From assembly GCA_027065775.1 (NCBI GenBank), contig JAMONN010000212.1, positions 1 to 64,000 of the forward strand: 64,000 nucleotides of DNA. Direction: 5' to 3'. Origin of the DNA: Flavobacteriaceae bacterium (GTDB lineage Bacteria; Bacteroidota; Bacteroidia; Flavobacteriales; Flavobacteriaceae). Below the pieces are notes generated by a model. It was not told the origin of the DNA, made no database searches, and worked only from the letters and a program-made list of their open reading frames with translations. The position numbers were made by a program, and so were the translations under genes. This document shows, piece after piece, positions 19,993 to 33,308 of this stretch. Each line of letters opens with the position of its first letter. The stretch's first letter is position 1.

Positions 19993-20733
19993 TTAAAGAC
20001 TCGCCTTTAAAAACTCACGATTCATTCTTGCTATATTTTCTAAAGAAATTCCTTTTGGACATTCTACTTCACAAGCACCTGTATTTGTACAGTTACCAAA
20101 ACCTTCTACGTCCATTTGATGAACCATATTTAAAACACGATCTGTAGCTTCAACTTGACCTTGTGGTAATAATGCATATTGACTCACTTTTGCAGCTACA
20201 AATAGCATTGCGCTTGAATTTTTACAAGTAGCAACACAAGCACCACAACCAATACAAGTTGCAGCATCCATTGCTTCATCGGCAGCGTGTTTAGAAATTG
20301 GTATTGCGTTTGCATCTTGTGTGTTACCAGAAGTATTTACGCTAATAAATCCACCAGATTGTTGAATACGTTCAAAAGACATTCTGTCTACAACCAAATC
20401 TTTAATTACCGGAAATGCTGCTGCTCTAAATGGTTCAATAGTTATAGTATCGCCATCTTTAAAGCTACGCATATGTAACTGACAAGTTGTAATACCACGA
20501 TCTGGACCATGTGCTTCACCATTAATATACATAGAACACATACCGCAAATTCCTTCACGACAATCGTGATCAAAAGCAACAGGTTCTTCGTCTTTTTCAA
20601 CTAATTGTTCATTTAAAACATCTATCATTTCTAAAAATGACATGTGTTCTGAAATATCAGTAACTTTATAATCTACCATTTTACCTTTGGCATCTTTATT
20701 TTTTTGTCTCCAGATTTTAAGTGTAAGATTCAT
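19993..20733 (-). CDS. sdhB: Succinate dehydrogenase/fumarate reductase iron-sulfur subunit
   Basis: The 246-residue subunit has all three cluster motifs. The [2Fe-2S] cysteines are at residues 58, 63, 66 and 84 (CREGICGMC and TTCQ). The [4Fe-4S] motif is [11 protein letters not shown] (about 155-165). The [3Fe-4S] motif is [14 protein letters not shown] (about 210). It passes electrons from SdhA to the membrane subunit. Instead of following sdhA directly, it starts only five bases after the stop of a PD-(D/E)XK-like gene, so its translation depends on the inserted pair being transcribed through. Confidence 0.95.
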
Positions 20734-20738
20734 ACTTT

Positions 20739-21227
20739 TTAATTAAAAGTTAAACTATTTGTTTCGATATATTTAGTATTATAATTTACATTATAACGGT
20801 TTCTTCTATTCTTATCCGCTGAACTTGTTAAATTTGATGTACTTCTTAAATTTAAAATTACTTTTATTTTCATTTCTTCAATTTCAGGATATAAATTTAA
20901 AAAATAAGGTATTGTTACTTCAAACTTTTTTTCAGCATTTTTCTTTGCTTTACTTCTTTGTTTAATTTTCACATCTTTTGCTTCAATAAAGTAAAATTCA
21001 TCTTTAAAAATAATTATCCAATCGCATTTTTTCAAATTTTTATTAGTCATTAAGCATTCATCATTTTGAAAAAAATCGACATTAATATTAGATTTATTTA
21101 TAATATTTAAATTCCATTTTTCGTCTACTTTACAAAATAATGGTTTGTTATTTATATCGTCATCATAAATATAATAATCTCCTTTTTTTAAAGGATAATG
21201 ACATTTTGTATCTAATTTTTCAATCAT
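20739..21227 (-). CDS. Small PD-(D/E)XK-nuclease-like protein paired with an AAA ATPase
   Basis: This 162-residue protein is not a known family to me. The segment [20 protein letters not shown] contains Asp69, Glu82 and Lys84 in the D-x(n)-E-x-K arrangement of the PD-(D/E)XK nuclease fold. A basic stretch [15 protein letters not shown] follows (about residues 87-101). Its ATG overlaps the ATPase stop (21224-21227, ATGA-type), and its stop is five bases before sdhB. The layout suggests a nuclease effector controlled by the ATPase. Nuclease activity is inferred from one motif only; a structural role is possible. Confidence 0.6.
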
Positions 21228-22429
21228 CTAATATCTAATAGGTTTTCAAATTCATCATTCATATCATCAGACACTTCATCGATAATATTATCACTTATTA
21301 ATCCTGTTTTTTTGTCGATTATGCTTTTTGCTTTTCCGTTTTTTAGTTGATAACAACTAATGTCATCTACATTTAACCAATATTCTTCTTTTATTATTTT
21401 TTTAGTTGCTTTTTTATTTAATTGTCCTTTTTTATATGCCATTAAATAATCATTAATAGCAGATAAAAAATATGGTGAATGTGTAGGGATAATAAATGAA
21501 TGTCCATTTTCATTAACATTTTTAATAAAAAATGCCATTAATTTTTTTTGAGTACTTGGAAAAAGATTTATTTCTGGTTCTTCTACTATAAAAGTTCGTT
21601 TTCTTTTTTCAATTCCAGTGTAGTATTTAATTCCTAAAACTATTGGTATAGACGATTGATAACCACTTGCTCCATTAGACAAATTATAAAATGACAATTC
21701 ATCATTTTTTCTAGTTAAACCTTTACCATTTTCATTTTTATAATGGATTTCTAAATGTTCTATTTCTGTTTCAGTTTTATATTTATCAGCAATATTGTAT
21801 AAACTTGCTAATTGTCCATATAAAGTATCAGAATAATTAGGAGATTTACCCAAAGAAAAAATAGACTGTAGACCTCTTTCGGTAGGAAAATAAAAAGGGT
21901 TGTTCATTACACTTTTTACATTTAACCTAAAAAAATTCTCCGAAGGATGCCAATTTGGATCTAATAAATAAGTTTGTTTTGGTTTAATATCTTCTAATTC
22001 GCTAAGTAATTTTTTAAATTTTTTGGATTTCTCTATGATTTCACAATACGATACAGGTATTTTTTTTGTTATATATTTTTCGTTATCATCTAAACCAACA
22101 TTAAATGATTCTAACTTAGTTGAAACTTCAATTGTATAATCCTTACTTTTGTAAAAAATATATGTATTTTCTTTTTTATAACTTGCAATTCCCCAATCAA
22201 ATAATCCTTGATAAAAAGCACTTTCTCTTCTGCCTACACTTCCTTGAGGAACTAGGTTATAATCAACTATATAAGAAAAATACCTACAAACAGCCAAAAC
22301 CTTAGCAATAGTACTTTTACCAGTTGCTTGTTCACCAATAAGTATATTAATCTTTTTTAAATCAAGTTTAATATCCTTAATTGGACCAAAGTTTTTTATG
22401 ATTAATGTTTCTTTATTTTCCTTACTCAT
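21224..22429 (-). CDS. AAA/ABC-type ATPase (OLD-like, no Toprim) inserted in the sdh operon
   Basis: The 401-residue ATPase has Walker A GEQATGKST (residues 32-40). A signature-like LSNGASGYQSS is present, as is Walker B TFIVEEPEINLFPS, and the switch His lies in FIIPTHSPYFLSAIND. The C-terminus is acidic ([18 protein letters not shown]). This is the AAA_21/AAA_15 type common in defence ATPases such as PtuA or RloA. It overlaps a small nuclease-like gene by four bases and lies between sdhA and sdhB, where no relation to respiration is expected. A defence role is inferred. Confidence 0.8.
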   Translation of the reverse strand: MSKENKETLIIKNFGPIKDIKLDLKKINILIGEQATGKSTIAKVLAVCRYFSYIVDYNLVPQGSVGRRESAFYQGLFDWGIASYKKENTYIFYKSKDYTIEVSTKLESFNVGLDDNEKYITKKIPVSYCEIIEKSKKFKKLLSELEDIKPKQTYLLDPNWHPSENFFRLNVKSVMNNPFYFPTERGLQSIFSLGKSPNYSDTLYGQLASLYNIADKYKTETEIEHLEIHYKNENGKGLTRKNDELSFYNLSNGASGYQSSIPIVLGIKYYTGIEKRKRTFIVEEPEINLFPSTQKKLMAFFIKNVNENGHSFIIPTHSPYFLSAINDYLMAYKKGQLNKKATKKIIKEEYWLNVDDISCYQLKNGKAKSIIDKKTGLISDNIIDEVSDDMNDEFENLLDIR

Positions 22430-22468: not shown

Positions 22469-22504
22469 ATAAGTAAAGACGTTTTGCAAAACGTCTTTAC
22501 TTAT
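22469..22504. repeat. Perfect 36-bp palindrome at the sdhA stop codon
   Basis: The sequence is fully self-complementary about the point between 22486 and 22487 (core ACGTTTTGCAAAACGT). It covers the last codons and the TAA of sdhA. No T tract follows, so it is not a typical terminator. Its form (GTAAAGACG arms) resembles the dispersed GTAGAGACG-type palindromes I recall from other Flavobacteria. It marks the exact left edge of the ATPase-nuclease insertion. Confidence 0.75.
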
Positions 22505-24512
22505 AACTCCTAGTCTTCAACTCAATATCTTTAAATTCTAATTCTTCTTTGTGTAAAATTGCATCACTTGGTTCGCCTTTATATTCCCAAGCAGCCACGT
22601 ATTTGTAATTTTCATCATCTCTTAATGCTTCTCCTTTTTGTGGACCATCTGTTTCTACAGATTCATCTCTAAAATGTCCGCCACAAGATTCGTTACGGTT
22701 TAAAGCATCTTTTGCAAATAATTCTCCTAATTCTAAGAAATCTGCAACTCTACCTGCTTTTTCTAATTCTTGATTAAATTCGTTTAATGATCCTGGTACT
22801 TTTACGTTTTTCCAGAAATCTTCTCGTATCTCTTTAATTTCAGTAATAGCTTCTTTTAAATGTTTTTCATTTCTTGCCATACCTACTTTATCCCACATTA
22901 CTTTCCCTAATTTTTTATGGAAATAATCAACAGAATGTGTTCCTTTATTATTAATGAAAAAATCTAAACGTTCTTTCACTTCTTTTTCTGCTTGTTCAAA
23001 TTCTGTAGAATCTGTAGAAATTGTTCCTGTTCTAATATCATCCGATAAATAATCGCCAATAGTATAAGGTAATACAAAATAACCATCGGCTAAACCTTGC
23101 ATTAATGCAGATGCACCAAGTCTGTTTGCTCCGTGATCTGAAAAATTTGCTTCACCAATACAATACAAACCTTCTACAGTTGTCATTAAATTATAATCTA
23201 CCCAAACGCCACCCATTGTATAATGTGTTGCAGGATAAATCATCATTGGTGTTTCATACGGATTTTCAGCAATAATTTTTTCATACATTTGGAATAAATT
23301 CCCGTACTTTTCTTCAATAATTGCTTGTCCTAATTTTATAATTTCCGCTTTGGAAGGATTAGAAATATTATGAATTTTTGCTTGTTCATTACCATATCTT
23401 ACAAAGGCAGAAGCAAAGTCTAAATAAACTGCTTCGCCAGTTGCATTCACACCAAAACCAGCATCGCAACGTTCTTTTGCTGCTCTAGAAGCAACATCAC
23501 GTGGCACTAAATTACCAAATGCAGGATAACGTCTTTCTAAATAATAATCTCTATTTTCTTCAGCAATTTCGGTAGGTTTTAATTTACCTTGTTGAATTGC
23601 TTTTGCATCTTCTATTCTTGCTGGCACCCAAATTCTTCCGTCATTACGTAAAGATTCAGACATTAAAGTCAATTTAGACTGATAATCACCTGATCTTGGA
23701 ATACAAGTTGGGTGAATTTGTGTATAACAAGGGTTTGCGAAAAATGCACCTTTTTTATGAATTTTCCAAGCGGCAGTTGCGTTTGAACCCATTGCGTTGG
23801 TTGATAAAAAGTAAACATTTCCATAACCACCAGTTGCAATTACTACTGCATGTGCCGAGTGTCTTTCTATTTCGCCAGTAATTAAATTACGTGCAATAAT
23901 ACCTCTTGCTTTTCCGTCAACTTTTACAACATCTAACATTTCATGTCTGTTGTGCATGGTAATTTTACCACGAGCAATTTGTCTATTCATTGCTGAATAT
24001 GCTCCTAAAAGAAGTTGTTGACCAGTTTGTCCTTTTGCGTAAAATGTTCTAGAAACTAAAACACCACCAAAAGATCGATTGTCTAATAAACCACCATAAT
24101 CTCTCGCAAACGGAACACCTTGTGCAACACATTGATCTATAATATTACCTGAAACTTCAGCTAAACGATATACATTTGCTTCACGTGAACGATAATCGCC
24201 ACCTTTTACGGTATCATAAAATAAACGATAGTTAGAATCACCATCGCCCATATAATTTTTTGCAGCATTAATTCCGCCTTGTGCAGCAATTGAATGTGCT
24301 CTACGTGGCGAATCTTGATAACAAAACGCTTTTACATTATAACCTAATTCGGCTAAAGTTGCAGCAGCAGAACCGCCAGCTAAACCTGTACCAATAACAA
24401 TAATATCAATATTACGTTTGTTTGCAGGATTTACTAAATCAATTTTATTTTTATAATTCGTCCATAAATCAGCAATAGAATCACCTTTAGGAACTTTTGA
24501 ATCTAGTTTCAT
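22497..24512 (-). CDS. sdhA: Succinate dehydrogenase/fumarate reductase flavoprotein subunit
   Basis: The 671-residue flavoprotein has the FAD-binding motif [19 protein letters not shown] (about residues 46-64). The histidyl-FAD region is [20 protein letters not shown], and substrate-site sequences include [12 protein letters not shown] and [16 protein letters not shown]. It oxidises succinate to fumarate in the respiratory chain and TCA cycle. The large size is normal for the Bacteroidota type. The last codons lie inside a perfect palindrome. A TCTGCG leader repeat separates it from sdhC. Confidence 0.95.
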
Positions 24513-25376: not shown

Positions 25377-26279
25377 TTAAGGTGTTATAATGCCATCTTG
25401 GTTTTTATTTTTTTTAATATTTACTAAGACTTCATGTAATGTTTCGGCTGCTAAACCATGCAAAACCAAATTATAAGCAGCATTATAAGTTGTTGCAGGA
25501 ACCATAGGATGTTTATTATTTACTAGACCTAAATGACTTGGCGTTCCTAAAATTTGTGCAGTATAAATTGAAATTGTTTCGTCTAATTGTAAAGAATTAG
25601 ATGCTCTTACAAAATCATTTGAAGTTAAAAAAAGTTGATAATATGGTGTAAAAAGTTCAATGGCAGACCTTAAATCTAATACATTTGTCCATTTATTTGG
25701 AAAATCGATATGATCAAACTGATCTTCGGTTATCATACTTAAATTTAGGGTTTCGACTTTTTTAATAATTGTATTTTTATTTGCTAATTCTCTGTTTAAA
25801 TTAATAACAAAATTGTACAAATTTAAATCGTGATTTAAAAATAAGTTATCTTTTACGTCATTAAAGTTTTTTGGTCTTAACGGATTTGTTTCTACTTGCA
25901 CACCTTCTATATTGTTAGCAATAAATTCTACTATTTCGGTACCAATATGAAAATGTCTAAAGATTAATAAATTTGCATTATTACTAACAAACTTTTTTAA
26001 ACCCCATGCTAAAATTTTGTGTAGCGTTTTTGGTGCATTGATTATCTTTGGAAAAAAGAACTTAAATAAATGAATAAAAAACATCAAAACTTTAGAAAAA
26101 AACATAATTAATGGCAGTAAATATTTGACCGATTTGGAGTCATTATCTAACATTAATGCTTTTTTAGTAGCGTTATTTAAAGGAATACTTGTATCTAAAT
26201 ATAATGCTAACCAAGGATTTGGATCTCTGCTATCATGTGTAGAAACATCAAATATTTTATTTTTCATTTTCATTTTCAT
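25377..26279 (-). CDS. Conserved protein of unknown function in a ketosynthase locus
   Basis: I do not recognise this 300-residue protein with certainty. It has a hydrophobic segment at about residues 53-77 (LLPLIMFFSKVLMFFIHLFK). A His-rich FRHFHIGTEIVEFIANNIEG follows at about 105-124, and the rest is largely helical. Three possible starts (26279, 26273, 26267) arise from the KMKMK N-terminus. It follows the ketosynthase-di-iron fusion gene by 53 bases on the same strand, so it probably works on the same lipid or ketone product. An integral or peripheral membrane enzyme is possible. Confidence 0.7.
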   Translation of the reverse strand: MKMKMKNKIFDVSTHDSRDPNPWLALYLDTSIPLNNATKKALMLDNDSKSVKYLLPLIMFFSKVLMFFIHLFKFFFPKIINAPKTLHKILAWGLKKFVSNNANLLIFRHFHIGTEIVEFIANNIEGVQVETNPLRPKNFNDVKDNLFLNHDLNLYNFVINLNRELANKNTIIKKVETLNLSMITEDQFDHIDFPNKWTNVLDLRSAIELFTPYYQLFLTSNDFVRASNSLQLDETISIYTAQILGTPSHLGLVNNKHPMVPATTYNAAYNLVLHGLAAETLHEVLVNIKKNKNQDGIITP

Positions 26280-26332: not shown

Positions 26333-28183
26333 TTAATAATTCCCTAATTCTTCTAACTGCATCTGATAAAGTCTTGCGGTAACTTTTGCTGTTTTAACAA
26401 TACGTTTTGCTAAATTTATATCCATTAACGGATGATTTATAGCTTTTTCTAAGTTGTGAAAATGACTTTCGTCAGCAACACCATGATACGTAAAAAAGGA
26501 AACTTGATCGGCATTTAAATTTAGCTGCTCTTTAATCATATTTCCCCAAAATGCTGCTAATCTTTTGCCAATACCTTCAATAATAAACATAGAACCTAAT
26601 AAATTTATTGGGTTTGGTTTACTTGCTTCTTGAAACATAAATGAAGTAAGCGCAACCGAACCAATATTTTTTTTGCCGTTTTGAATAACGGATTTTGGTT
26701 CGCCAAGATTTTCGAAATTTGCTTCTAACATTTGGTAATCTTTATGTTCTGCTGCGGTGTGTTTAATAAAGGCAGAACGTAATTCAAAAATTTCAATATC
26801 GATGTTCGATGCTGCTCTAGAGATCCAAAGTGAACCATCTATTACTTGTTGTCTTAAATCGCAAAGCAATAATTTATAATCTTCTAAACTTAGTTTGCCA
26901 TCATGTATTTTTGTTACAATTGGTATTTTTAAAAGATTGGTTTCAAAATTTATCCAAACTTTGGTAAGATTTCTAATTAGCCATTCTGACACTTCTGTTT
27001 TGTCTAAAATTAATTCTGGTGCTTCTATTTTTCTTATCGGAAATTTATTTTTGGAAGGTTTATTATTTCCAACAACAGTTAATTTCATAAAGGAAGTAAT
27101 AAATCGACCACTTTCTGGAACCATACATAAAATGGTGTCGTTTGGTTTTAATTTACCAGAATACATAAGTTCTTCTAACATTATAAAAATGGAGGCAGAA
27201 CCTGTATTTCCTTTAGTTGTTAGATTGCTAAACCATTTTTCATCTGGAATTTCGCCACCACCTTTTATCATTAATTCTTTAATTGGTTCTTTAAAAAATT
27301 CAGTAGAATAATGACAGCATAACCAATCGATTTCTTTCACATTAATCAATCCTTTATCAATTAATTCAAAATAGTGATTAACACCTGTTTTTATAACTTG
27401 ATTTAATAATTTTACATCTTGTTTTAAGTTAAAAGCACCATCTTTTGAAGCCAAATCTTGGTTTGGATAATCTAACCAAAATGGACCTTTATTACTTTTA
27501 TTATCCTTTTTACCATTATACATACATAACGGAAATTTATGCGCATGCGATTCTATTTCTATCCATTCAATTTTTAGAGAAAGTCCTTTGTCATTTTTTT
27601 TATTTTCTAAGACAAAAGCTCCAGCACCATCCGAAAGCATCCATCTTAAAAACTCGGTATCAAAAGGAATCGATTTTTGTTCTTGTGCATCAAAACGTGA
27701 TGCTTTAAATAATCTACTTGCAAATTCGCTACCAACACAAACTGCATTTTGTTTTTCATCACTTTTTATTTGAACAAAAGCATTTTTTAAAGCCATCATT
27801 CCGCTTGCACAAACACTTTGAAAACTGGCAACTTCGCATTTATCAAAGTCTAATTCTGCATGAACCATACTTGCAAAACCTGGTATTAATAAATCGCCTT
27901 GTGTGGTACCTGTAGATAAAAGTTGCACATCTTTTGCTTTTAGTGTACTTTTTTTAATTGCTTGTTCTACTGCATTTTTTGCTAATTCTGCATTAGAATG
28001 TGTGCTTTCTTGTTTTTTATTAATTGCAAAGTATCTTTTTTTAATTCCGTTTTGTTTTAAAATACGGTTTTTTAAACCACTTTTTTTACCATTAATCTTC
28101 CCTAAAAAATCTTCCATATTATCATTAGAAATCGCTTTGTTTGGTAAAAAAATACCCGAACTGGTAATGTAAACATCTTTCAT
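26333..28183 (-). CDS. Ketosynthase III fused to a haem-oxygenase-fold di-iron domain
   Basis: The 616-residue protein has an N-terminal beta-ketoacyl-ACP synthase III domain (about 1-370). Its Cys-His-Asn triad is intact: C125 in FQSVCASGMM, H291 in LCCHYSTEF and N326 in KGNTGSAS. The C-terminal about 390-616 is all-helical and carries E479-H480, E536 and H567-x3-D571-x2-H574 (YHGVADESHFHN). This is the ligand pattern of haem-oxygenase-like di-iron oxygenases such as UndA or CADD. Ordinary KAS III ends near residue 330-370, so this is a fusion. It may condense an acyl chain and oxidise or cleave it; the product is unknown. Confidence 0.78.
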   Translation of the reverse strand: MKDVYITSSGIFLPNKAISNDNMEDFLGKINGKKSGLKNRILKQNGIKKRYFAINKKQESTHSNAELAKNAVEQAIKKSTLKAKDVQLLSTGTTQGDLLIPGFASMVHAELDFDKCEVASFQSVCASGMMALKNAFVQIKSDEKQNAVCVGSEFASRLFKASRFDAQEQKSIPFDTEFLRWMLSDGAGAFVLENKKNDKGLSLKIEWIEIESHAHKFPLCMYNGKKDNKSNKGPFWLDYPNQDLASKDGAFNLKQDVKLLNQVIKTGVNHYFELIDKGLINVKEIDWLCCHYSTEFFKEPIKELMIKGGGEIPDEKWFSNLTTKGNTGSASIFIMLEELMYSGKLKPNDTILCMVPESGRFITSFMKLTVVGNNKPSKNKFPIRKIEAPELILDKTEVSEWLIRNLTKVWINFETNLLKIPIVTKIHDGKLSLEDYKLLLCDLRQQVIDGSLWISRAASNIDIEIFELRSAFIKHTAAEHKDYQMLEANFENLGEPKSVIQNGKKNIGSVALTSFMFQEASKPNPINLLGSMFIIEGIGKRLAAFWGNMIKEQLNLNADQVSFFTYHGVADESHFHNLEKAINHPLMDINLAKRIVKTAKVTARLYQMQLEELGNY

Positions 28184-28189
28184 AATTAA

Positions 28190-28921
28190 TTATTTTTTTT
28201 TGATTAATTTAATTAACCAAACGTATAGATGATCTAGTTTATTTAAAGCAAAAGCATAATTTTTTCTTAAATTATAATGATGTTGATTATGTTGCGTTGC
28301 TATTAATTGCCATTTTTTTCCGTTACCGAAACGATAATTGCAATGCGCAGAGAAGTTTATTAAAATACTTATAAAAGGATAAATAAATATTGCCAAAGGA
28401 GCGAAAGCAAAAAACGGAATAATTGTAATCGGAACCGTACTTAGTAACAGCGCTTCTAACCAATGAAAACTGAAAACGGAATAAACAGTTGTTATTTTTG
28501 ATTTATGATGAACACGATGTACATTTTTCATAAAAAACGGTATATGCATTATTCGATGTATAATAAAGAAATGAATTTCGTTCCAGAAAATTAATACAAT
28601 TAAACCAATAAAAATAGAACTCGTTGTGTTTGGAAGCATGATGATTTTTCCATTTCGAAATAAATATATTATAGGAAGAATGGAAAAACCAAAAATAAAT
28701 ATTGATTTTAATGAATGATAAATTTCAAAACGAATTTGTTTTTTTGATACTTCTTTTTTAACCATTTTATGAATTATATTTTTATGATTTAAATAATTAC
28801 TTATTCTTAAAAAAACCTGTCCAACACCAAAATATAAAATTAAAAAGTATAAAAAAGTTAATAAATACAAACTTAAATAACTGTATTTAAAGAGAATGTT
28901 ATTTATAAGTTCTTGTATCAT
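28190..28921 (-). CDS. Sterol desaturase / fatty acid hydroxylase family protein
   Basis: The 243-residue membrane protein has several hydrophobic segments and the His-box set of the fatty acid hydroxylase superfamily: HRIMH, HRVHHKS and HNQHHYN. These bind a di-iron centre that hydroxylates lipid chains. It lies seven bases upstream of the ketosynthase-di-iron fusion and starts a likely three-gene unit. A TACATTTG promoter box sits only four bases before the ATG, which suggests a leaderless or near-leaderless message. Confidence 0.85.
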   Translation of the reverse strand: MIQELINNILFKYSYLSLYLLTFLYFLILYFGVGQVFLRISNYLNHKNIIHKMVKKEVSKKQIRFEIYHSLKSIFIFGFSILPIIYLFRNGKIIMLPNTTSSIFIGLIVLIFWNEIHFFIIHRIMHIPFFMKNVHRVHHKSKITTVYSVFSFHWLEALLLSTVPITIIPFFAFAPLAIFIYPFISILINFSAHCNYRFGNGKKWQLIATQHNQHHYNLRKNYAFALNKLDHLYVWLIKLIKKK

Positions 28922-30098: not shown

Positions 30099-31310
30099 AT
30101 GTATTCAAAAAAAGTAACTTTTAAAAACAAACAAGGTCAAGTTTTAACAGGCGAAATTGATTTGCCAATAGATAAAAAACCATTGAGTTATGCTTTATTT
30201 GCTCACTTTTTTACAGGTAATAAAAATTTTACTGCTGTGCGAAATATTTCAAGAGCTTTAACTCAAAATCAAATTGCAGTAATGCGTTTTGATTTTACTG
30301 GTTTAGGTAAAAGTGAAGGTAAGTTTGAAGATACAAATTTCACAAGTAATATAGATGATTTGATTTCCGCAGCAAAATATCTAACCGAAAACCATCAAGC
30401 ACCAAAAATTATGATTGGTCATTCTCTTGGTGGAGCAGCAGCAATTTTTGCAGCCGAAGCAATAGATTCTATAGAGACTGTTGCTACAATTGCAGCGCCA
30501 TCAAGTCCAAGTCATGTTGAACATTTATTTGACGAACATATTGATAAAATAGAATTAGATGGTGAAGCAACATTTGATATTGCGGGAAGACAATTCACTA
30601 TTAAAAAGCAATTTTTAGATGATATTCATGAAAAAAATCTTCCGAAAATTTTAAAAGATTTACGCAAACCAATTTTGGTTTTTCATTCGCCTCAAGATAA
30701 AATTGTAGGAGTTAAAAATGCAAGAGAAATTTATAGTGCAGCACATCATCCTAAAAGTTTTATTTCGCTTGATGGTGCAAATCATTTGTTAACCAATAAA
30801 GAAGACTCTTTTTATGTTGGTAAAGTTATAGGCTCTTGGGCAAATAGATATGTTAATCACGACAAAAAAGAAGAATTATCCACAGACAAATCGGTTGTTG
30901 TTCGTATTGGTAGAGAAAAATATACTACAGAAATTGCAGCAAGAAATCACGCTATTTTAGTTGATGAACCTAAAAAATATAAAGGTAAAGATGCAGGAAT
31001 GACACCTTACGAATTACTATTAGCAAGTTTAGGTTCATGTACTGCAATTACCTTAAGAATGTATGCAGATAGAAAAGAATGGGATTTACGTGAAGTGAAA
31101 GTGCATTTAGAACATTTTAAACAACATGCAAAAGATTGTAATTCTTGTTCTAAATCTGATAATAAAATTGATAAATTTGTACGTGAAATAAAATTAAAAG
31201 GAAATCTAACCGAAGAGCAAAAACAACGCTTATTACAAATTGCAAACCGTTGTCCTGTTCATAGAACTTTAGAAAATACTATTAAAATTGAAACGAAATT
31301 ACGAGAATAA
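30099..31310 (+). CDS. Bifunctional alpha/beta hydrolase / OsmC family protein
   Basis: The 403-residue protein joins an alpha/beta hydrolase (about residues 1-250) to an OsmC-type domain (about 265-403). The hydrolase has the nucleophile elbow GHSLGGAAAIF (about 108-118), an Asp in HSPQDKIVGVKN and a His in DGANHLL. The OsmC part has its two redox cysteines in LGSCTAITLRMY and ANRCPVHRTLEN. OsmC domains reduce organic hydroperoxides. This fusion is common in Bacteroidota, so it is not unusual. The protein is cytoplasmic. Confidence 0.9.
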   Translation: MYSKKVTFKNKQGQVLTGEIDLPIDKKPLSYALFAHFFTGNKNFTAVRNISRALTQNQIAVMRFDFTGLGKSEGKFEDTNFTSNIDDLISAAKYLTENHQAPKIMIGHSLGGAAAIFAAEAIDSIETVATIAAPSSPSHVEHLFDEHIDKIELDGEATFDIAGRQFTIKKQFLDDIHEKNLPKILKDLRKPILVFHSPQDKIVGVKNAREIYSAAHHPKSFISLDGANHLLTNKEDSFYVGKVIGSWANRYVNHDKKEELSTDKSVVVRIGREKYTTEIAARNHAILVDEPKKYKGKDAGMTPYELLLASLGSCTAITLRMYADRKEWDLREVKVHLEHFKQHAKDCNSCSKSDNKIDKFVREIKLKGNLTEEQKQRLLQIANRCPVHRTLENTIKIETKLRE

Positions 31311-31449: not shown

Positions 31450-32337
31450 ATGAAAATAATAATATTATCTGTTAGTGAAAACATCTATTCAACCGAAAGA
31501 TTAGTTGCAGAGGCAGAATATCGCGGTCACCAAGTTAGTGTAGTAAATCACACAAAATGTTCTGTGTTAATTGGCAAATCAAAACCTCAAATAATGTTTG
31601 AAGGTAGAGATATTATTGACGATGCTGACGTGATAATACCTCGAATTGGTTCTTCGGTTTTTAGGCATGGTGCAGCAGTTGTTAAAGAATTTGAAATGAA
31701 TGGCGTTTTTAGTACTGCAACTGCTTTAGGAATTGCTCGTTCTCAAAACAAAGTGCGTACTTTACAGATAATGAATCGTAAAAATGTACCGATTCCGAAA
31801 ACTGTTTTTTCTATAAATCCAGATGATATTGAACAGCAAATCGAATTACTTGGTGGCGCACCAGTTATCATAAAATTACAAGAAGGAACACATGGTTTAG
31901 GTGTTATATTAGCAGATTCTAAAAAATCTGCAAAGTCTATTATTGATACTTTCATTAATATGGACACAAGTATTATGTTACAAGAATTTGTGAAAGAATC
32001 TAATGGCGAAGATATTAGAGCAATTGTCGCTGGTGGAAAAGTAATTGCATCTATGAAAAGAATTGGTGCCGAAGGTGATTTTAGATCAAACATTCATCGT
32101 GGTGGAACAGGCGAAAAAGTAGAATTAACCAATAAAGAAAAAAGAACTGTTTTAAGAGCAGCACGTTTTTTAAGTCTGCCTATTTGTGGTGTAGATTTAA
32201 TTAGATCCAAAAGAGGTTCATTATTAATAGAAGTAAATTCAACGCCTGGTTTACAAGGTATCGAAGCATATACTAAAATAAATGTAGCCGAAGAAATTAT
32301 AAAATTTATTGAAAAAAACAAACACTTTAAATATTAA
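31450..32337 (+). CDS. rimK: RimK family alpha-L-glutamate ligase (ATP-grasp)
   Basis: The 295-residue protein has the RimK N-terminal domain (KIIILSVSENIYSTERL, DDADVIIPRIGSSVFRHG) and the ATP-grasp core (PVIIKLQEGTHGLGVILA, MLQEFVKESNGEDIRAIV, LIEVNSTPGLQGIE). RimK adds glutamates to ribosomal protein S6, or to another acceptor. An aspartoacylase-like gene follows eight bases downstream, a pairing often seen with RimK. Confidence 0.9.
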   Translation: MKIIILSVSENIYSTERLVAEAEYRGHQVSVVNHTKCSVLIGKSKPQIMFEGRDIIDDADVIIPRIGSSVFRHGAAVVKEFEMNGVFSTATALGIARSQNKVRTLQIMNRKNVPIPKTVFSINPDDIEQQIELLGGAPVIIKLQEGTHGLGVILADSKKSAKSIIDTFINMDTSIMLQEFVKESNGEDIRAIVAGGKVIASMKRIGAEGDFRSNIHRGGTGEKVELTNKEKRTVLRAARFLSLPICGVDLIRSKRGSLLIEVNSTPGLQGIEAYTKINVAEEIIKFIEKNKHFKY

Positions 32338-32345
32338 AAACAAGA

Positions 32346-33308
32346 ATGTTTACAAAAAATTTTAAAAATGAAGTAGTAGAAATCCGAGGTCATAAAATAG
32401 GTTTAGGAGAAAATAAACTCATAAAAATACCTGTAGATAGATTGCCAACAGGTACATTAATCGAAATTCCTGTCTATATTTTTAATGGTAAAGAAGCAGG
32501 TCCAACTATTTTGTTACAAGGCGGTTTGCATGGCGATGAGGTGAATAGTATTGAAATGATTAGAAGAATGTTAATTGATAAATCCTACAAAATTAATCGT
32601 GGTTGTGTGATTGTTGTTCCGTTATTAAATGTTTTTGGATTTTTAAATTTATCACGTGATATGCATGGTAAAGATGTTAACCGAAGTTTTCCTGGTTCTA
32701 AAAAAGGTTCTTTGGCAAGAAGAGTTGCGTATTATCACATGAGAGATTTAGTTGGGAATATCGATTTCGGAATCGATTTTCATACTGGTGGAGAACAGCG
32801 TTCAAACTTCTCACAAATTAGATATACAGCAACCGATGTTAGAGCACAAGAATTGGCAGAAATATTTAATGCTCCGTATATGTTTGCTTCAAGTCTAATC
32901 CCTAATTCTTTTAGAAATGAGTGTTATAATAATAATATTCCTATTTTAGTTTTTGAAGGTGGCGAATCCTTAAGGTTAGATGAAGATTCCATAGAAAAAG
33001 GTATTAACGGAACGCTAAATATACTCAAACACTTTAAAATGATTAGTGATAAAATTATTATTCCAGTAATGGGAAAAAGTATTCTAATTAAAAAACGAAA
33101 ATGGATTAGAGCAGATATTGCAGGTCTTTTTAGTATTAAAATTAAAAACGGAAATAAAGTAAGTAAAGGAGAATTATTAGGTAATATTATGGATACGTAT
33201 GGCGAAACAAAATTAGAAGTTTTAGCGCCAAAAAATGGTTATATTATTGCCGTAAATAATTTTCCTATTGTAAATATGGGTGATGCTTTATTTCATATTG
33301 GCAGTTAA
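32346..33308 (+). CDS. Succinylglutamate desuccinylase/aspartoacylase family protein
   Basis: The 320-residue zinc carboxypeptidase-fold protein has the metal and catalytic motifs LQGGLHGDEVNSIE (about residues 57-70), GKDVNRSFPG and GIDFHTGGE. The C-terminal about 90 residues resemble a lipoyl/barrel-type domain (NGNKVSKGELLGNI). Because it forms a pair with rimK, it may trim or regulate the glutamate modification (inference). Its stop codon abuts the stop of the convergent pth gene with no base between. Confidence 0.85.
   Translation: MFTKNFKNEVVEIRGHKIGLGENKLIKIPVDRLPTGTLIEIPVYIFNGKEAGPTILLQGGLHGDEVNSIEMIRRMLIDKSYKINRGCVIVVPLLNVFGFLNLSRDMHGKDVNRSFPGSKKGSLARRVAYYHMRDLVGNIDFGIDFHTGGEQRSNFSQIRYTATDVRAQELAEIFNAPYMFASSLIPNSFRNECYNNNIPILVFEGGESLRLDEDSIEKGINGTLNILKHFKMISDKIIIPVMGKSILIKKRKWIRADIAGLFSIKIKNGNKVSKGELLGNIMDTYGETKLEVLAPKNGYIIAVNNFPIVNMGDALFHIGS

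Follow-up and report, generated by a model that had tools for sequence, protein, structure and literature searches.

A ketosynthase III fused to a haem-oxygenase-like domain is the centre of a conserved, apparently lipid-making operon in marine and freshwater bacteria

A single gene of a Flavobacteriaceae bacterium encodes what looks like a double enzyme, one half of which joins fatty chains and the other of which resembles an O2-using iron enzyme. Both parts are of known kinds, and the pieces are annotated in databases already. Its position at the centre of a conserved operon of three to four genes, and the existence of a version with the two domains on separate genes, go beyond what the first-pass annotation of this DNA had recorded. 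This operon is common to many marine and freshwater bacteria, and it apparently makes a lipid. We propose, with a probability of roughly 0.6, that the ketosynthase domain carries out a condensation and that the haem-oxygenase-like domain then oxidises the ketosynthase product in an O2-dependent step, as part of a small dedicated lipid pathway.

The gene lies on the minus strand of the window, that is, the whole stretch of 64,000 nucleotides that was analysed; the first-pass annotation had given no strand. The open reading frame first reported at 26333-28183 is real and intact, and each residue named in the first-pass annotation sits at the number given there. The gene, its parts and its two operon neighbours are as follows, HDO standing for haem-oxygenase-like dimetal oxidase.

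26333..28183, minus strand: ketosynthase III-HDO fusion gene, 616 aa, with an ATG start and no internal stop
27068..28183, minus strand: ketosynthase III domain, residues 1-372, with C125, H291 and N326 (Pfam, NCBIfam NF005293, StlD 5gk2)
26996..27067, minus strand: linker, residues 373-396, with the lowest model confidence (residues 376-378 at pLDDT <50)
26336..26995, minus strand: haem-oxygenase-like (HDO-type) domain, residues 397-616, seven main helices (Pfam, model, Foldseek, profiles)
26747..26749, minus strand: codon of E479, in the alignment column of the Glu that serves CADD-like HDOs as second-helix ligand
26576..26578, minus strand: codon of E536, a conserved Glu common to PF14518 and CADD-like proteins
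26462..26485, minus strand: H567-x3-D571-x2-H574, third-core-helix ligand motif (alignment, 74/74 conservation)
28190..28921, minus strand: membrane protein of the fatty-acid hydroxylase family PF04116, 243 aa, 6 bases upstream of the fusion
25377..26279, minus strand: DUF6999 (PF22523) protein, 300 aa, 53 bases downstream of the fusion

The same fused frame is present in 8 of 395 Bacteroidia genomes at 65-76% identity, and a search of those 395 genomes with the haem-oxygenase-like domain at E 1e-4 found it in these eight only, always fused. A wider scan of the C-terminal domain against 84,980 species genomes returned 157 relatives, of which the best 80 were taken as the loci for study. An open reading frame of 605-640 aa occurs in 73 of these 80 loci, and the near-full-length fused copies span Bacteroidota, Planctomycetota and Verrucomicrobiota. 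Among the remaining loci, L119 is also a fused open frame, two sit at the end of a contig and begin within the domain, two are without the first N-terminal residues, L116 runs off its contig, and L107, from a metagenome-assembled genome (MAG), is broken. In this last case (L107:2138-3207) the start of the ketosynthase is joined to the haem-oxygenase-like part with the middle missing, probably through an assembly fault. Hosts of the fusion include Flavivirga, Aquimarina, Zobellia, Cyclobacterium, Echinicola, Flagellimonas, Crocinitomix and one Kapaibacterium MAG, together with MAGs of Planctomycetota and Verrucomicrobiota, whose copies are about 50% identical. Genome mining for the same fusion, which had been proposed as a check, thus recovered it repeatedly. 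Conservation was assessed on 74 full-length sequences representing 35 clusters at 80% identity, and the fusion is conserved across all of these clusters, which rules out a chance open reading frame, a frameshift or an assembly fusion. C125, H291, N326, E479, H480, E536, H567, D571 and H574 are each present in 74 of the 74 full-length fusions.

The N-terminal half is a ketosynthase of the StlD-like type III fold. Pfam ketosynthase III and thiolase-superfamily models match over residues 58-354 (ACP_syn_III_C at 280-354), and the nearest solved structure to the predicted model is StlD 5gk2 (Z 52.5 over 368 residues, rmsd 1.7, 41% identity), with the next family following at Z 38.7. The condensing triad Cys125-His291-Asn326, noted at first reading, is borne out by this fold and by its invariance. 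The NCBIfam model of the StlD/DarB ketosynthase (NF005293) covers residues 4-371 at 439.1 bits, below its cut-off of 450, while NF053539 reaches 407.7 bits against a cut-off of 550. Because both scores fall under the NCBIfam cut-offs, we file the domain as a sister clade of StlD/DarB and not as a member. A maximum-likelihood tree places the fusions and a split ketosynthase from Pseudoalteromonas on one side and StlD with the solo DarB-like ketosynthases on the other, with support of 100/100, and an earlier quick tree likewise gave the domain as the sister group of StlD/DarB. The fusion and split ketosynthases are one clade, separate from the StlD/DarB-like enzymes, and have a single-clade origin.

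The C-terminal half of about 220 residues has a haem-oxygenase-like fold. Haem_oxygenas_2 (PF14518) matches residues 520-606 of the window protein marginally, at 29.1 bits against a cut-off of 28.9; the assignment is firmer among relatives, 18 of 19 diverse members matching (best E 9.4e-10). An AlphaFold2 model of the whole fusion (mean pLDDT 89.8) gives this half as a seven-helix bundle, with helices at 397-417, 433-460, 463-492, 507-520, 526-553, 562-582 and 589-611. Searched with Foldseek against a viral library, chosen for the fold match because ketosynthases are few there, the model returned four ketosynthases and then three viral haem-oxygenase or haem-oxygenase-like proteins at probability 1.00 (TMt 0.52-0.56, E 0.009-0.013). 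Ketosynthase matches filled the lists when the whole model was compared with the PDB by Foldseek and VIA-align, so that the haem-oxygenase-like domain was barely tested there. By profile, the domain matches 3dde, described as a haem-oxygenase-like fold, at E 1.8e-8, and the CADD family (TIGR04305) matches weakly (E 0.0028) over the entire domain length. Profile-profile alignment with other PF14518 groups covers the C-terminal half only, and a comparison of the domain with PHROGs gave no match. The predicted structure, for which comparison had been advised at the outset, points to a haem-oxygenase-like fold; together with the model, the Foldseek, 3dde and CADD matches bear out the fusion of this fold to a ketosynthase III.

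For the candidate metal ligands, MAFFT alignments set the domain against PF14518 proteins of Bacteroidia genomes, CADD-like ones among them. E479, E536, H567, D571 and H574 share columns with the conserved E, E, H, D and H of these proteins, and all five are kept in the split protein (P0002), which is 35% identical. The first-pass annotation had also counted H480 in the ligand set, paired with E479, and this pairing is not borne out by the alignments: the column of the usual third His, which comes after the second-helix Glu, is occupied by Tyr/Phe483 instead of H480, as it is in the alignment with 3dde. Judging from helix periodicity, the neighbours E479 and H480 would point different ways, and H475, E479 and D482 would lie on one face. 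H475, H480 and D482 are invariant in the fusions and are kept in the split protein too, and any of them may supply the missing ligand. The column of the first-helix carboxylate has no stable counterpart, the alignment being unstable there, and the candidates are Q446 (Q in 74/74), D449 (Glu in the split protein) and D442 (70 D, 4 N). The residue pattern suggests an HDO-like site with a changed second-helix contribution, which might hold two metals, one or none. Variants of the 3H/3C, 3H/4C and mononuclear kinds are described in a 2026 review of HDOs (PMC13108848). With the third His and the first-helix carboxylate off their usual columns, the site may be mononuclear or may carry out no O2 chemistry.

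The neighbourhood of the fusion was compared in 81 loci, made up of the window and 80 relatives (the best 80 of 157). A PF04116 fatty-acid hydroxylase stands just before the fusion in 58 of the 81, and DUF6999 follows it in 78, with median gaps of 3 and 10 bases, giving an operon of hydroxylase, fusion and DUF6999. A fatty-acid desaturase (PF00487) is found in 12 loci, between or behind the other operon genes. The hydroxylase keeps the invariant histidine set typical of its family. The Planctomycetota and Verrucomicrobiota loci are without it and carry, behind DUF6999, a His-rich membrane protein of about 190 aa with no Pfam match, which is possibly an unrecognised membrane oxygenase; examples of this protein, which also occurs in Pseudoalteromonas, are at L117:9604-10164, L120:9575-10162, L121:4645-5232 and L130:7436-7993. 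A further Bacteroidota set, many of them Flagellimonas/Muricauda, has neither protein. Across the 81 loci the His-rich protein is the only recurrent neighbour family besides the hydroxylase, desaturase and DUF6999, and the remaining surroundings vary; no carrier protein, DarA-like aromatase or redox partner was found in the conserved operon of these loci. An operon that combines acyl condensation, a haem-oxygenase-like oxidase, a membrane hydroxylase and a desaturase points to a modified acyl product.

A split version of the system is present on the 801-kb plasmid pTHAF3_a of Pseudoalteromonas sp. THAF3, where the ketosynthase III and the HDO are separate, adjacent genes (FIU82_RS18255 to RS18240). 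The order is His-rich membrane protein, ketosynthase III, 'iron-containing redox enzyme' and DUF6999, with gaps of 1, 2 and -8 bases between the four genes. This arrangement resembles that of the fusion in the succession of ketosynthase III, HDO and DUF6999, with 44% identity across both domains. It differs in having two genes in place of one, and in that the His-rich membrane protein, which again lacks a Pfam match and is homologous to that of Planctomycetota (46%), replaces the fatty-acid hydroxylase. The occurrence of the domains as one protein in one lineage and as neighbouring genes in another argues for their cooperation. Of 14 control genomes, the only one to match in all three family searches (DUF6999, PF14518 and StlD/DarB-type ketosynthase) was that of Caulobacter vibrioides. 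Judging by these matches, this genetically tractable laboratory species probably carries a version of the system; literature searches for a link to Caulobacter found nothing relevant.

DUF6999 follows the fusion closely: among the 395 Bacteroidia genomes, all eight with the fusion have it, and it was found in no other. Its model is of high quality (pLDDT 88.2, pTM 0.87), and comparison of the fold with the PDB gave no match (Foldseek best E 0.77; VIA-align best Z 2.9). Sequence searches of the PDB and of PHROGs returned nothing, and paper searches nothing relevant. Residues kept as far as Pseudoalteromonas include D19, D29, R108, H109, H150, D151, D233, H257, H274 and E279. On the basis of the model, DUF6999 may be an enzyme of undescribed fold, which we offer as a lead only.

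The identity of the domains, the conservation of residues, the single-clade origin, the operon and its split version were observed directly; for the metal, the use of O2, the substrates, the order of steps and the product, we infer the following scheme. C125 would take up an acyl chain and, aided by H291 and N326, join it to a second (beta-keto)acyl thioester; the ring of a cyclohexane-1,3-dione might close in this step, as it does with StlD/DarB-type ketosynthases. The haem-oxygenase-like domain would bind one or two metals with H567, D571, H574, E479 and E536 plus one or more additional ligands, activate O2, and oxidise the ketosynthase product by dehydrogenation, hydroxylation or decarboxylation. 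The membrane hydroxylase or the His-rich protein, the desaturase where present, and DUF6999 would then tailor the acyl chains or the product.

The nature of the second step can be narrowed only tentatively. In one form of the scheme, the HDO domain would take the place of DarA: the ketosynthase would supply a cyclohexanedione, and the HDO domain would aromatise or hydroxylate it to an alkylresorcinol, or else to an alkylphenol or quinone in a more oxidised state. The sister-group position of the ketosynthase is consistent with this, as are the conserved operon without a DarA-like gene and the finding that six of the eight fusion-bearing Bacteroidia genomes hold no second match to the fusion at E 1e-10, that is, no solo DarB-like ketosynthase. 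However, ring formation by the fusion clade would be an analogy, the ketosynthase scores under the curated StlD/DarB level (439 against 450 bits), and its active-site surroundings differ, reading FQSVCASG where StlD has STSGACAAG. The fusion itself as a flexirubin DarB was considered and rejected. The host has another DarB-like gene on another contig, where a DarA-like gene comes directly before it and two FabZ-like genes come next (names that are a reading of their sequences), and it is this locus, not that of the fusion, which matches the DarA-like, DarB-like, FabZ-like arrangement of flexirubin loci.

The first-pass annotation had envisaged oxidative decarboxylation or cleavage instead. An UndA-like HDO would act on a beta-keto or free fatty chain from the ketosynthase and release an alkene, a methyl ketone or a shortened acid. 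UndA is indeed a haem-oxygenase-like fatty-acid decarboxylase (PMC13108848), and the operon looks lipid-related. Against this, the searches did not place the domain nearer to UndA than to other HDOs, its sequence matches being to 3dde and, weakly, to CADD, and the third-His column is changed. StlD/DarB-type ketosynthases also lead to ring products, not free fatty acids. Decarboxylation is therefore possible but unlikely, and ring aromatisation or hydroxylation in the place of DarA, itself a doubtful proposition, is preferred to it because the ketosynthase is sister to ring-forming enzymes. Least likely of all is that the domain is no oxygenase but a metal-poor or metal-free TenA/PqqC-like or haem-binding domain that only holds or passes on the product. 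In favour of this, the first-helix carboxylate and usual His are off their columns, haem oxygenase PF01126 gives weak matches in 3 of the 19 members (best E 0.0031), and E479, H475, H480 and D482 could serve other roles. It is opposed by H-x3-D-x2-H, E479 and E536, which agree with the ligand motif of characterised HDOs and never vary, either among the 74 fusions or in the split protein with its 35% identity.

Condensation followed by O2-dependent oxidation is thus the reading that we favour. Beyond it, we speculate that these loci could represent an undescribed O2-dependent lipid pathway of Bacteroidota, Planctomycetota, Verrucomicrobiota and some Pseudomonadota. Here, a DarB-like ketosynthase would deliver its product to a tethered haem-oxygenase-like oxidase with rearranged ligands, aided by DUF6999, as an enzyme with no fold match in the PDB, and by interchangeable membrane oxygenases.

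Other gene arrangements of the window were also noted. A two-gene insert at 20739-22429 (minus strand) lies inside the succinate dehydrogenase operon, between sdhA (22497-24512) and sdhB (19993-20733). It comprises an AAA ATPase and a small protein, whose matches are to PDC-M29A/PDC-M29B, a candidate anti-phage pair (E 9e-34 and 1.4e-10), and forms an island of defence-like genes within a housekeeping operon. At 30099-31310 (plus strand) an alpha/beta hydrolase is fused to an OsmC domain. At 31450-33308 (plus strand) a RimK-like ATP-grasp ligase adjoins an AstE/AspA-type deacylase, which suggests a pair for tagging and untagging with amino acids or peptides.

HDOs do unusual oxidations, and only about a dozen have been characterised among more than 10,000; those characterised mostly take fatty or amino acids as substrates (PMC13108848). 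With a condensing enzyme tethered to the HDO, the choice of likely substrates comes down to the ketosynthase product, making this group unusually easy to test. Further, the operon provides a defined set of genes and draws in DUF6999, a family of unknown function. The main text of the 2026 review never mentions a ketosynthase (PMC13108848), and the literature searched, which leaves most subscription journals outside it, held no characterised enzyme or paper with the fusion or the operon. Both agree with the original remark that no characterised enzyme has this fusion.

Besides the split operon of Pseudoalteromonas, three known systems are close to parts of this one. StlD/DarB (NF005293; PDB 5gk0, 5gk2) resembles the whole ketosynthase domain in fold and in its Cys-His-Asn triad; the fusion differs in falling under the family cut-off, in forming a separate clade, in the attached haem-oxygenase-like domain and in an operon without DarA. 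CADD/PabS and other HDOs (TIGR04305, PF14518; UndA, SznF, AetD) share the haem-oxygenase-like fold, the second-helix Glu, the E536 column and the H-x3-D-x2-H motif, whereas the fusion has Tyr/Phe483 at the His column, no clear counterpart of the first-helix carboxylate, the extra invariant residues H475, H480 and D482, and an attached ketosynthase. DarB-type ketosynthases form cyclohexanediones and resorcinols, according to the passage of PMC3992019 that cites Fuchs 2013. The DarA-DarB dialkylresorcinol/flexirubin operon is like the present one in that a DarB-type condensing enzyme has an oxidising partner of its own. In resorcinol synthesis by DarA/DarB, a separate protein, DarA, carries out an oxidation that follows the DarB step, whereas here the oxidising partner is a haem-oxygenase-like domain, fused or adjacent to the ketosynthase, and the further partners are DUF6999 and a membrane hydroxylase.
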